A DNA stretch of 39,678 nt from Nanobdellota archaeon (GTDB lineage: Archaea; Nanobdellota; Nanobdellia; Woesearchaeales; WJIZ01): assembly GCA_030647105.1 (NCBI GenBank), contig JAUSJW010000003.1:1-39678 (forward strand), given 5' to 3'. Both the position numbers and the translations under genes were made by a program. The notes under the pieces were generated by a model. The model had not been told where the DNA came from, made no database searches, and saw only the letters and a program-made list of their open reading frames with translations. Positions 11,709 to 33,773 of this stretch are shown one piece after another. Each line of letters opens with the position of its first letter. Position 1 is the first letter of the stretch.

Positions 11709-11722
11709 AAATAAAAAGAAAA

Positions 11723-11818
11723 TGACCCTGGTGGGATTTGAACCCACGACCTACAGCTTAGAAGGCTCTAGCGGAAAATTGCTTTTCAGTCGCCCTATCC
11801 AGGCTAGGCTACAGGGCC
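11723..11818 (-). tRNA. tRNA-Arg(UCU) with an intron at 11768-11788
   Basis: Reverse complement GGCCCTG TA GCCTAGCCTGGATAGGGC G AC[21-nt intron]AGC CTTCTAA GCTGT AGGTC GTGGG TTCAAAT CCCAC CAGGGTC A. All four arms pair after intron removal. Confidence 0.93.
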
Positions 11819-11899
11819 ATGCGCCTTCAGAACCTTCCTTCTTTTTTAAACCTTCTTAACGCAAACCATATAAAAGCACCCTGTTTCTAAGCATACAAG

Positions 11900-17742: not shown

Positions 17743-19497
17743 TCAGGCAGTATAATAATACTTCTTGCTCGATTTCTGCTCCCGATCCAGAACCGACCCT
17801 TCTTTGTTGATGCGCGGCCTTCCGGAATCAGGGTCCCGCCTGAATGTCAAAGCGAGTTCAGTCAGGAATCTGGTCATGCCTTCGCCCATCGGGAACGGCC
17901 CCGTCGCCATCCCGAAGATTGCGGGCTGGCCCTCGAACACCATGAGTTTCTCGCTCAAATAGTCAAGGAAGAGCAGGTCGTGGTCGACCACCATGCAGCT
18001 CTTGCCCCGCAGGTCCATGAAGTCGCGAATCAGTTTCGAGACAATCAGTCTCTGCTCGACGTCAAGGTACGCCGAAGGCTCGTCTAACAGATAAACATCA
18101 GCCTCTTTCGCAAGGCAAATCGCGATGGCTACGCGCTGCAATTCCCCGCCAGAAAGCTCGTTGATTTTGCGCGTAAAAAGAAACGTCAGGCCAAGGGGCT
18201 CTACGACTTGTGTATTATGCTTCGCGATGGCGTCCTGCAGCACGTTCTCCACGAGCTCATCAGAGGAGCTATCCAGATACTGCGGTTTGTAGCTGACCTT
18301 AATGGACGTATCAATCTCTCCCGCGTCTGGCTTGTCCACTCCCGCGAGAATCTTCACAAAACTTGTTTTTCCCGTCCCGTTCTCGCCCAGGATTCCAATG
18401 ATGTCCTTGCGGTGAATGCTCCCAAAAGCGGACTCGAGCGAGAACCTTCCAAGCTTCTTTTTGATTCCTGTCCAGCTCACCTGCACCGTACTTTCACCGC
18501 GCCGCGCCTCAGCTCGCTCCTTGAACGTGATGGCCTTGTCGCGGAAGCGCATATTCTCATCCCGCAAAAACCCGGACAGGTAAATGTTGATGCCGTTGCG
18601 CGTGCTCTTTATCTTGGAGCAGATGCCGTACACCCCTTCTTTGCCATAGAGCAGGTAAATCATCTCAGTCATGTAGTCCAGAATAATCAAGTCGTGCTCG
18701 ACCACCATGACAGCGGTCTTTTCGTCCGCGAGGTCCCGGATGAACCTGCTCACGTTCAGGCGCTGCTTGATGTCGAGGTAGCTCGAAGGCTCGTCGAAGA
18801 AGTACACGTCAGCCTTTCTGAGCACCGTCGCGGCGATAGCCACCCGTTGCAATTCTCCGCCGGAAACCTTGGAAACGTCGTTGTCAAGCACATGCTCCAA
18901 ATCGAGAATCTTCACAATCTGCGCGAACTGCCCCTTCTCGTCCACACGTTCAAGCAGCTGCCGAACAGTTCCTTTCGTCGCTTTCGGAATCAAATCGACT
19001 TGCTGAGGTTTGTAGCTTACCCGAATCGTCTTGTTCTTGAGCCGCTCAAGGTAATCTTGGGCCTCGCTGCCCTTGAAATAAGAAATCAAGTCGTCATAAG
19101 TAGCTTCGGTCGTTCCGCCTAAATTCGGCATGAACTGCCCAGAAAGAATTTTTAGGGCAGTCGACTTTCCAATGCCATTCCGACCGAGAATGCCTACTAC
19201 TTTTCCGAAGAGCGGCACGGGGAGGTTATACAGATGGAACCCGTTCTGCCCGTAGCGGTGGATGGGCTTGGAAGCGAGCTCGTCCGGCAGGTTGATGATG
19301 TGGATGCTGCCTGGAGTCGAGCGGTTGACGCAGATGCCGCAGCCGATGCACATCTTTTCGTCGATATTGATTTTCTTGTCTAGGGGAGAAATAGTAATGC
19401 ACGGCTCTCCCTTCCGGTTCACCGGGCAGAGATTGACCATTAACTCGGACTCGTAGGGGTTGAAAAGGTCCCGGTTCACGACAGCGATTCTGGGCAT
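17743..19497 (-). CDS. ABCE1/Rli1 ribosome recycling ATPase
   Basis: MPRIAVVNRDLF..CPVNRKGEPCI...CIGCGICVNRSTPGSIHIINLP Fe-S domain, twin ABC cassettes. Start reset to the ATG at 19497. Confidence 0.97.
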   Translation of the reverse strand: MPRIAVVNRDLFNPYESELMVNLCPVNRKGEPCITISPLDKKINIDEKMCIGCGICVNRSTPGSIHIINLPDELASKPIHRYGQNGFHLYNLPVPLFGKVVGILGRNGIGKSTALKILSGQFMPNLGGTTEATYDDLISYFKGSEAQDYLERLKNKTIRVSYKPQQVDLIPKATKGTVRQLLERVDEKGQFAQIVKILDLEHVLDNDVSKVSGGELQRVAIAATVLRKADVYFFDEPSSYLDIKQRLNVSRFIRDLADEKTAVMVVEHDLIILDYMTEMIYLLYGKEGVYGICSKIKSTRNGINIYLSGFLRDENMRFRDKAITFKERAEARRGESTVQVSWTGIKKKLGRFSLESAFGSIHRKDIIGILGENGTGKTSFVKILAGVDKPDAGEIDTSIKVSYKPQYLDSSSDELVENVLQDAIAKHNTQVVEPLGLTFLFTRKINELSGGELQRVAIAICLAKEADVYLLDEPSAYLDVEQRLIVSKLIRDFMDLRGKSCMVVDHDLLFLDYLSEKLMVFEGQPAIFGMATGPFPMGEGMTRFLTELALTFRRDPDSGRPRINKEGSVLDREQKSSKKYYYTA

Positions 19498-19627: not shown

Positions 19628-19761
19628 CTAATGGGCGACACTAGTTTCGCATATATAGTGCGAGGCATAAATAATTGAGCAATGCTGCCCCGCGCTATAT
19701 ACGGAGGAAGCAACAATTCCAATCAGTTATTTGCTTCCGACAGTATCCTTCCGCCCATTAG
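19628..19761 (+). ncRNA. Candidate three-helix structured RNA
   Basis: P1 CTAATGGGCG/CGCCCATTAG (10 bp), P2 TATATAGTGCG/CGCGCTATATA (11 bp, one U·G on + strand), P3 GGAAGCAA/TTGCTTCC (8 bp). Confidence 0.5.
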
Positions 19762-19764
19762 ATT

Positions 19765-19811
19765 TGGAGGACAAACCAAATGTCTATACCCTACTTTTGT
19801 CCTCCATTTTT
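19765..19811 (+). terminator. Hairpin plus T tract: TGGAGGACAAA-(20)-TTTGTCCTCCA-TTTTT
   Basis: Perfect 11-bp stem (19765-19775 / 19796-19806) followed by TTTTT. Terminator function is inferred. Confidence 0.5.
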
Positions 19812-19933: not shown

Positions 19934-20362
19934 ATGGATGAAAAAAGCGCGATTAAAAAAGACGTTCCAGCAGGAGTAAAAACCGTCTCGGTGATGTACT
20001 TTATCCTTGGAGCCTTCGGGCTTATCCCTCTTGGTGTAGTTTTACTAATCGGCGCCTTTGTGAACTCTATGGTTAGCGCTTCGTTTATTCTGGTAGCAAT
20101 TATCTTCTTAGTTTTAGTTGTCCTAGATATCTCTGTGGGTGTAGGCTTATGGAAGGGAAAACCGTGGGCTAGAACTACCGCATTAACCTTCTCGGGGTTA
20201 GGGCTTATTGGAATGATTATCGGAATAGTCCAAATGATTCAAGGAAACAATGCCTTCGCGTTAATGCCGAGCAAGATATCCTTCTTTGCGAGTTCCTCGC
20301 TCCTTATTATAAGCGGATTGTATCTGCTCCTGAATAAAAACGTGAAGAAAGCGTTTGCTTAA
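19934..20362 (+). CDS. Small membrane protein with about four predicted TM segments
   Basis: Hydrophobic runs MYFILGAFGLIPLGVVLLIGAFV, ASFILVAIIFLVLVVLDISVGVGLW, LTFSGLGLIGMIIGIVQMI, SLLIISGLYLLL. Start reset to the ATG at 19934. Confidence 0.8.
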   Translation: MDEKSAIKKDVPAGVKTVSVMYFILGAFGLIPLGVVLLIGAFVNSMVSASFILVAIIFLVLVVLDISVGVGLWKGKPWARTTALTFSGLGLIGMIIGIVQMIQGNNAFALMPSKISFFASSSLLIISGLYLLLNKNVKKAFA

Positions 20363-27033: not shown

Positions 27034-27144
27034 GCCCCTGTGGCGCAGTAGTAGCGCGTCTGCCTCGTATTGGACAGCATCCTCTCTTTCAGGACCAGTT
27101 CAGAAGTAAGCAGAAGGTCGGGAGTGCGAATCTCCCCGGGGGCA
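27034..27144 (+). tRNA. tRNA-Thr(CGU) with a 39-nt intron in the anticodon loop
   Basis: GCCCCTG TG GCGCAGTAGTAGCGC G TCTGC CTCGTA[27070-27108]A GCAGA AGGTC GGGAG TGCGAAT CTCCC CGGGGGC A. All arms pair. Confidence 0.9.
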
Positions 27145-31506: not shown

Positions 31507-31956
31507 CTACTCTCTAGGGGGTCTTTCCAGCGCATATGCAACCATGGCCCTGATATGATACTCCTTTTCCTTCTGAGATAAAGGAAGAATATCGGCAAAT
31601 ATAGCGTCTCTGTAATGATCACTAATCATTCTGCGCATACAATGGACCTGAGAGGGAGAGAGCTCCTCTTGAGTTTCCCTAACTGAAGCACTATAAATCG
31701 TCTTCACCAAGGCATCTATTCTCCACTTACCTAACGCTTTCTGAAACTGTTGTTGACCTTGGTTGTCTGATGCAAGGAGTCTGCTCAATGGGCCTTCACG
31801 TGCTTCTTCTAGGAGCACCACATAATCAATATCGCCATGGCTATGATCTAGGAAGCGGACTCGGCCCGCCATTTGATCCAGATAATTCCCACGAGAAGCA
31901 AGGGCCGGATCAGGATCCGCTAGCCAGACTACAGTTTTCCCTCCAATGTGTACCAT
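31507..31956 (-). CDS. Hypothetical protein, tandem family member 3
   Basis: KTVVWLADPDPAL..DYVVLLEE..FQKALGKW..IRAMVAYALERPP parallels the two upstream genes. SD AGGTGA. Confidence 0.75.
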   Translation of the reverse strand: MVHIGGKTVVWLADPDPALASRGNYLDQMAGRVRFLDHSHGDIDYVVLLEEAREGPLSRLLASDNQGQQQFQKALGKWRIDALVKTIYSASVRETQEELSPSQVHCMRRMISDHYRDAIFADILPLSQKEKEYHIRAMVAYALERPPRE

Positions 31957-31959
31957 TGT

Positions 31960-32439
31960 TCACCTTTTATCAGGAGCGGGTGTGAGCGCATAAGCGACTA
32001 TCCCATGGAGGTCGGTTATTACACTCAGTGGCGCACGCAGGGTCCCGGGGGTGAGCCGCCTCTTGTAGAACTCAGGTCTCACGACCGATTGAGGATCCAC
32101 GGCACTAGCATATGCATGGATAGCCATCATAGCGGAAGATACATCTCGACCTCCATACCCCTCTTTGTGGCCCATACATAGAATGATGTGTCTAACAAAT
32201 ACATCAAGACCGCTTTCTGTTAAGGCCCTTTGGAAAAAATCCGTCGTACGTGGGACTACAGTCGTATCGCCCATATCGAACTTCTCCCTAACCCCGCTCA
32301 ACAATAACGCATAGGGTGGTAAGCCTTGGGTTTCTGTATACTCCTTAATGCCAAGAGCCATCTCTCCCATGAAGAGAGGCGAAGTGATGGGCGCAAGTGT
32401 TTGTCTGTATTGCACCAGCGCTACTTTTTCTTCTGCCAT
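31960..32439 (-). CDS. Hypothetical protein, tandem family member 2
   Basis: KVALVQYRQTLAP..YALLLSGVRE..FFQRALTESGLDVFVR..HGIVAYALTPAPDK. SD GAGGTGA. Confidence 0.75.
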   Translation of the reverse strand: MAEEKVALVQYRQTLAPITSPLFMGEMALGIKEYTETQGLPPYALLLSGVREKFDMGDTTVVPRTTDFFQRALTESGLDVFVRHIILCMGHKEGYGGRDVSSAMMAIHAYASAVDPQSVVRPEFYKRRLTPGTLRAPLSVITDLHGIVAYALTPAPDKR

Positions 32440-32443
32440 TTTT

Positions 32444-32905
32444 TCACCTCATTGTAGCTTGCGCAGGAGCCAAAAGCGTAACCGGAACTATCGGCGCGCG
32501 CGTAAGCGCGTAAACGCCTATCCCATATACTACCGGGTCTTTCACGTCGTAATTTTGGAAACTTTCGATCCCCTGGTCGGTGTCTCCGCGAACTGCCAGA
32601 GCCGCGCAGTGAAATGGCATTCCCAGTGGCCTTGTATCCATACCCAAGCCTAGCTCCCTAATTTGGACATTCTGTCCACCTTCTCTTAATGCACTCTGGA
32701 ATTCTTGCGTCCAGGTAGCTAGATACTCCGCAGCCGGATTATAAACCTCCCCACTACGTCCACTCATTACCGCGACATAGTCAATCGGTCCACATCGATC
32801 CCACGCCAAAACCTCTTCCGCCATCTTTCTTTTGAAATCGGGCTGGTCTATCGCATGCTCTGTATCTAAAAGCCACAGCAATGTTTTTTCTCTCGGTTCA
32901 CCCAT
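32444..32905 (-). CDS. Hypothetical protein, tandem family member 1
   Basis: KTLLWLLDTEHAI..DYVAVMSGRS..FQSALREGGQNVQIR..YGIGVYALTRAP. ATG at 32905 preferred over the GTG at 32914, which lies within AGGTGA. Confidence 0.75.
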   Translation of the reverse strand: MGEPREKTLLWLLDTEHAIDQPDFKRKMAEEVLAWDRCGPIDYVAVMSGRSGEVYNPAAEYLATWTQEFQSALREGGQNVQIRELGLGMDTRPLGMPFHCAALAVRGDTDQGIESFQNYDVKDPVVYGIGVYALTRAPIVPVTLLAPAQATMR

Positions 32906-33017
32906 CTGTTTCACCTATTTGTAACCACTAGTAGATAGTAGCTTATATTTATAGAAGAAGCCCCCCTAAGGGGGAAACTAACAGAAGTTTTTTATAGCCG
33001 GCAAGACGCGCATATCC

Positions 33018-33773
33018 ATGAATCTCTCCGAACTCAGAAACATCGGCCTTACCGAAGGAGAGCTCAAAATCTACGGCGCACTTTTGGAGCATGGCGAGGC
33101 CACGCGCCAGGAACTCACAAAAAGGTCCGGCATCAGCTCATCAAAAATCTATGAAGTAGCGAACCATCTGGCAGCCAAGGGTCTCATTTCCATGGTAAAG
33201 AAGAACGACGTGCTCCATTTCAGCGCCGCGAATCCAGGCAGGCTGGAAAGCTTCCTCCAGAAGAAAGAAGAGGAGCTGAGTAAAGAGCGTGATATCGTAA
33301 AGAATCTGCTCCCAACGTTGCAGATGCGATATCTGGATGCGAGCGAAGAAGCGAATGTTGAAGTTTTCTATGGCTGGGAAGGCATGGAGACTGCCTTCGA
33401 CGACCTCGCAAACGCTCTCGGACCGAAAGATAAAAGCGAAGTCTTCGGCGCTTCCAAGGGTTATGATAACCAGCAGGCCGATATCTTCTTCAGCCGATTT
33501 TACCAGAAAAAACGAAAGAAAGGCTTTGCCACAAAAATAATCTTTAATGAGGATATGCGTGGCAGCCCCCGTATTGATCTCTTCAAGCAAGCGCCAAACC
33601 AATGCAGGTTCCTTCATCAGGACACGTATACAGAAATAAACACCTACAAAAAGGTCGTGCTCTTTGTCATGCTCCTTAAGAAACCGATTGTCATCCGGAT
33701 TACAAGCGAAGAAGCCGCTAACTCCTTTAGAACTTATTTTGAATCATTGTGGAAACAAGCGAGCGCGAAGTGA
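33018..33773 (+). CDS. TrmB-family transcriptional regulator
   Basis: LRNIGLTEGELKIYGALLEHGEATRQELTKRSGISSSKIYEVANHLAAKGLI plus coiled-coil and C-terminal effector-like domain. Confidence 0.9.
   Translation: MNLSELRNIGLTEGELKIYGALLEHGEATRQELTKRSGISSSKIYEVANHLAAKGLISMVKKNDVLHFSAANPGRLESFLQKKEEELSKERDIVKNLLPTLQMRYLDASEEANVEVFYGWEGMETAFDDLANALGPKDKSEVFGASKGYDNQQADIFFSRFYQKKRKKGFATKIIFNEDMRGSPRIDLFKQAPNQCRFLHQDTYTEINTYKKVVLFVMLLKKPIVIRITSEEAANSFRTYFESLWKQASAK

Follow-up and report, generated by a model that had tools for sequence, protein, structure and literature searches.

One question raised by the intergenic segment at positions 19628–19761 of the window (the whole 39,678-nucleotide stretch of archaeal DNA analysed here) is whether its marked folding reflects an RNA or a mobile DNA element. 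A preliminary description had favoured an unexplained three-helix RNA of the plus strand, with a MITE as the alternative. We conclude that the segment almost certainly represents two nested IS630-type MITEs from a family present in Woesearchaeota, one element (B) lying in the first loop of the other (A), which takes one false candidate off the list of new archaeal RNAs.

Locus and fold of the segment

The segment is located between two divergent genes. The upstream gene (17743–19497, minus strand) encodes an ABC ATPase with two ABC_tran domains, consistent with the ABCE1 assignment made previously, and the downstream gene (about 19940–20362, plus strand) encodes a small protein for which the Pfam search gave no match. 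The minimum-energy structure obtained with RNAfold for the 134 nt comprised the outer stem and both inner stems, with one T·G pair in 19652–19662/19691–19701; the three stems of the preliminary description were thus reproduced with their coordinates. The energy of this structure was −47.2 kcal/mol (z −6.2); shuffled sequences averaged −27.6 kcal/mol, and none of 200 shuffles equalled it. Since the minus strand of 19628–19761 folds equally well (−53.8 kcal/mol, z −6.1), the strength of the fold is uninformative about the strand.

Nothing was returned for the segment by Rfam 15 at the gathering score, in agreement with the initial statement that no RNA family was recognised, and the window plus 20 related loci gave tRNAs only. 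A permissive Rfam search of the segment produced only chance-level matches, such as DLEU2_5. The tRNA genes of the window (11722–11819, minus strand, and 27034–27144, plus strand) were matched over 96 and 111 nt, a length that suggests introns.

Elements A and B and their family

The stems of the segment were compared with sequences of the window's own 1.1-Mb archaeal assembly (G000) and of a congener, Candidatus Woesearchaeota isolate RIFCSPLOWO2_01_FULL_53_31 (G001). B alone is present as five further copies (87–93% identity) at unrelated G001 loci; the edges of these copies are always TATAG and AGTAT, and the outer stem is absent around all five. Further sites in G000 and G001 in turn carry the outer stem with a second hairpin (GGAGGACAGAA..TTCTGTCCTCC) after it, and lack B. 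When the 92 nt at 19654–19745 were removed from the window, a 93-nt A was obtained that aligns end to end with eight other A copies from both genomes, its loop reading CGCATATCCTTCCGCC, where intact A copies have CGCATATGTTTTCGCC or similar. Because this deletion restores a normal A, the three-way junction is explained by insertion of B into the loop of the first hairpin of A, and the insert boundary falls within that loop. The outer stem belongs to one dispersed repeat and the inner stems to another, and the junction is therefore found at this locus only. The 134-nt segment corresponds to the first half of a longer element, interrupted by the insert; the second hairpin of that element (19765–19775/19796–19806) belongs with the outer stem (Table 1).

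A scan of the genome collection with the B pattern gave matches in the congener only, and a scan of IMG/VR gave none for B and 14, possibly due to chance, for a 17-nt A pattern. A degenerate second B-like copy (E 1e-4) is located in the window's own genome at L144:501-593 (G000:C87:662-754).

Table 1. Positions in the window of the two assigned elements, their hairpin arms and the empty target site
Feature	Sequence	Position	Strand	Basis or remark
Element A, assigned as IS630-type MITE, 93 nt without insert		19628..19806	+	B sits in loop of hairpin 1; excision restores A
A hairpin 1, left (outer) arm	CTAATGGGCG	19628..19637	+	RNAfold
A hairpin 1, right (inner) arm	CGCCCATTAG	19752..19761	+	RNAfold
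A hairpin 2, left arm	TGGAGGACAAA	19765..19775	+	RNAfold of A minus B
A hairpin 2, right arm, terminal inverted repeat	TTTGTCCTCCA	19796..19806	+	G001:C76 copy: AATAGTGGAGGACAGAAGTAACGCATA, minus strand
Element B, assigned as IS630-type MITE, 92-nt block		19654..19745	+	Deletion restores A
B hairpin 1, outer arm	TATATAGTGCG	19652..19662	+	RNAfold
B hairpin 1, inner arm	CGCGCTATATA	19691..19701	+	RNAfold
B hairpin 2, inner arm	GGAAGCAA	19706..19713	+	RNAfold
B hairpin 2, outer arm	TTGCTTCC	19731..19738	+	RNAfold
Empty TA target, orthologue of G001 B-copy site (L207:2293-2388)		31508..31509	-	Filled/empty comparison

A covariance model built from the six B copies only also detected an A copy in the window's genome (E 2e-8), and gave matches in 59 of the 288 genomes of the order (Candidatus Woesearchaeota), about a fifth of the sample. 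In a phylum-wide sample, matches were limited to this order and one family of the same class. As expected of an IS630/Tc1-mariner-type MITE, the elements of the family are shorter than 200 bp (90–98 nt), non-coding, multicopy and dispersed, with most copies intergenic, and their twin-hairpin plan was visible in a sequence-only alignment of 38 elements: TATAG, a 12-bp stem, a loop with AAATAATTGA and an inner arm ending in CTATAT are followed by a second 12-bp stem, a loop with TCAATTATTT and a terminal CTATA. The two hairpins are homologous in inverted orientation, which gives the element its terminal inverted repeats; these read TATAGYnnnnGRACnYAAATAATTGA at both ends. The 10-bp terminal inverted repeats noted in the preliminary description, with no target-site duplication, were correctly related to a MITE, but they form hairpin 1 of A, and TA duplications are present in other copies.

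Roughly 40 loci of the element were found in G252, together with versions of about 190 nt (L265-L268) that have four successive hairpins; in L268 a further 92-nt-type element lies within an inner hairpin, which represents repeated nesting. A tandem at L124:501-689 consists of two elements separated by one nucleotide, whose halves are characteristic of different subfamilies; this suggests an exchange of hairpins between elements. Several copies (L122 and L119 in G252, L095 in G258) are located at contig ends or close to them, which would be expected of repeats that break assemblies; hence, copy numbers are probably underestimated.

Insertion at TA and IS630 partners

Insertion was analysed in two filled/empty pairs. 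In the first, the empty site GAATC-TA-C on the minus strand of the window corresponds to GAATC-TA-(90 nt, B)-TA-C in G001:C16. In the second, GAAC-TA-AACT in G242:C46 corresponds to GAAC-TA-(90-nt element)-TA-AACT in G252:C100, an exact TA duplication. The empty site of this second pair lies in the second hairpin of the G242:C46 element, so the G252 case is an element inside an element in another genus; being independent of the window, it gives direct support for the nesting at the window locus. In the window, the left junction of B is TA (19654–19655) and the right junction is TC (19746–19747), the latter being TA in four of the six copies and TC in the window copy and one other; the TA duplication is consequently deduced there from the other copies. 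Synteny between the window and G001 ends at the start of ABCE1, and no empty site for A plus B was readable at the orthologous position. The many dispersed copies and the TA duplications at filled/empty sites, observations that the preliminary description had named as refuting its RNA, support the MITE that it had offered as its second choice.

Three short minus-strand reading frames at 31510–33374 of the window are absent from the orthologous G001 site bearing a B copy, a local gene gain or loss adjoining that insertion.

DDE_3 (IS630-family) genes were detected in 29 of the 288 genomes of the order, namely in 13 of the 59 element-bearing genomes versus 16 of the 229 others (Fisher p 0.0024, phylogeny ignored). 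Autonomous IS630 elements of about 1.0–1.1 kb, in which HTH_32/33 and DDE_3 are encoded by different reading frames, have ends such as TAGTCAGCGACATAAGTAATTAGA. A matrix was built from 173 MITE ends, with IS630 ends excluded, and about 6,800 positions were scored at each locus. For the GACA-type IS630 elements, at least one end ranked 1–3 and both ends nearly always 1–4, with weaker ranks for L240 and a few single IS630 ends; the ends of L227 and L228, IS630 elements of another clade, do not match the matrix and act as a negative control. The right end of A in G001:C76 (AATAGTGGAGGACAGAAGTAACGCATAGAG) and an IS630 end in L232 (TATAGTTAGCGACATAAGTAACGCATGAAG) are identical at 22 of 30 positions, counted by eye, and in G229 a variant inner motif, GACATAAATAwTTATA, is common to the element and IS630. 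A and B belong to one dispersed family with inverted-repeat ends that inserts at TA with duplication, and autonomous IS630 elements of the order have similar ends.

An intact IS630 whose ends are exactly those of B (TATAGTGCAGGACAAAAATAATTGAGCA) was found in neither G000 nor G001, and no DDE_3 match was present in G000, which is 89% complete. Contig C58 of G001 (L235) has two DDE_3 matches, one of them interrupted by an in-frame stop, as well as a sequence resembling an end, TATAGCAAAAGACACAAATTGTTAGA, of another, though related, type; L235 is a possible decayed autonomous partner. An IS630-family (DDE_3) transposase acting in trans is predicted to bind the inverted repeats at their inner part; it would then excise the element at its TAs and paste it into another TA, at times one within an older element, in an AT-rich loop or linker. 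An IS630-type MITE family is recorded here across Woesearchaeota, with candidate autonomous partners of matching ends; a literature search for MITEs in Woesearchaeota or DPANN found no description.

Stem covariation and alternative readings

Two-sided compensatory changes were observed in 14 of the 15 consensus pairs, and arms of the same element paired at 10.7 and 9.9 of 12 positions, versus 7.4 and 7.1 with swapped arms. Such strong compensatory change is counted against the MITE reading, as is the fact that a pure terminal-repeat model needs no inner arms. Together with the strong fold and the complementarity of loops 1 and 2, these results favour a functional structured RNA, in which the transcribed unit would be either the whole 134 nt or the single 96-nt element, and the hairpins with their complementary loops would act as RNA. 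We consider this very improbable. Selection on an RNA of one strand predicts an excess of G·U on that strand, whereas a DNA-level process does not, and the imperfect pair cells comprised 27 G·U and 28 A·C, out of about 2,080 cells counted in 95 elements. Since both are equally frequent, the stem covariation does not indicate a plus-strand RNA. The preliminary description had taken one U·G pair as favouring the plus strand, an argument that fails family-wide; it had also proposed covariation as a check on the RNA, and the compensatory changes proved to be strong, but the lack of strand bias speaks against RNA as their cause. In addition, the three-way junction is confined to the site at which B entered A, and the copies are dispersed, with TA duplications and no Rfam match. 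The main reading first given, a three-helix plus-strand RNA, is thus replaced by separate dispersed repeats without strand bias. The complementarity of the loops, barely higher within elements (8.4 of 10) than between them (7.7–7.9), arises because the loops belong to inverted repeats; a kissing-loop RNA was rejected, given that inverted repeats account for the complementary loops.

Still less probable is a REPIN/BIME-type element that a Y1 tyrosine transposase (RAYT, PF01797) would mobilise in the form of single-stranded DNA. The likeness lies in the inverted hairpin pair of about 100 nt, dispersed in intergenic DNA, and PF01797 is commoner in element-bearing genomes (30/59 versus 71/229); however, that group would not be expected to show TA duplication or IS630-type ends, and none of the 20 PF01797 loci scanned has its Y1 transposase gene flanked by the hairpins or element ends, with one faint match about 1 kb from the gene. 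The least probable reading is that A and B are unrelated, convergent hairpins and that the wider family was produced artefactually by too permissive a covariance model. The model does derive from six near-identical copies, its first-pass scores are capped, and palindromes match both strands, but the conserved ends (TATAG..CTATA) and the inner motif appear in the 38-element alignment as well, and the ends recur in autonomous IS630 elements left out of the matrix. Unlikely, although less so than the foregoing, is that each half (TATAG..stem..loop..stem'..CTATA) constitutes a TA-bounded unit with an inner arm that mirrors the outer end, combined in twos or fours (the latter as in the versions of about 190 nt in G252), and that the hairpin, not just the linear repeat, is needed by the IS630 transposase or by a cell process acting on extruded hairpins. 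If true, this would be a structure-dependent form of IS630-type transposition.

For the nested MITEs, we infer that the likeliest cause of the stem covariation is template switching during replication, which creates and repairs hairpins and mimics compensatory mutation (PMC8794818). The IS630 ends examined form no such hairpins, and the inner arms are therefore a feature of the MITEs; they were probably made, and matched to the outer arms, by template switching at the inverted repeat and not by RNA selection. The hairpins may have a role in transposition, or occasional effects on transcripts such as those reported for Correia elements (PMC10969869). Nesting of mobile elements can thus yield a three-way junction that looks convincing, and textbook-like compensatory changes can come from a dispersed DNA element; the twin-hairpin layout with freely covarying stems provides a natural test of the extent to which RNA covariation can be imitated by template switching alone.

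By analogy, this kind of element is already well known from RUP with IS630-Spn1, and the twin-hairpin layout can be regarded as a variant. RUP (repeat unit of pneumococcus) is about 107 bp, intergenic and non-coding, with a TA target, and its ends resemble those of IS630-Spn1, the IS630-family element thought to mobilise it (PMC2229807, PMC3049150). The Woesearchaeota elements are likewise small, intergenic and non-coding, with a TA target and IS630-like ends; unlike RUP, they have an archaeal host, each end forms a separate 12-bp hairpin whose inner arm covaries, and the stem sequences vary widely between families. Correia ends also begin with TATAG(T/C)GG, and in the Correia hairpin the two ends pair with each other, whereas each end of the Woesearchaeota element folds on itself and the host domain is different. 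Correia and NEMIS elements of Neisseria (about 107 and 155 bp) have 24–26-bp terminal inverted repeats, terminal TA and stable stem-loops (PMC2229807, PMC3049150), and terminal inverted repeats, TA termini and stem-loops are shared by the Woesearchaeota elements. In the SPRITE clusters of Streptococcus pneumoniae, for which no significant similarity to pneumococcal IS ends was reported (PMC3049150), small repeats are inserted into one another (PMC10969869); the Woesearchaeota elements are similarly nested, but belong to a different family and have different ends.
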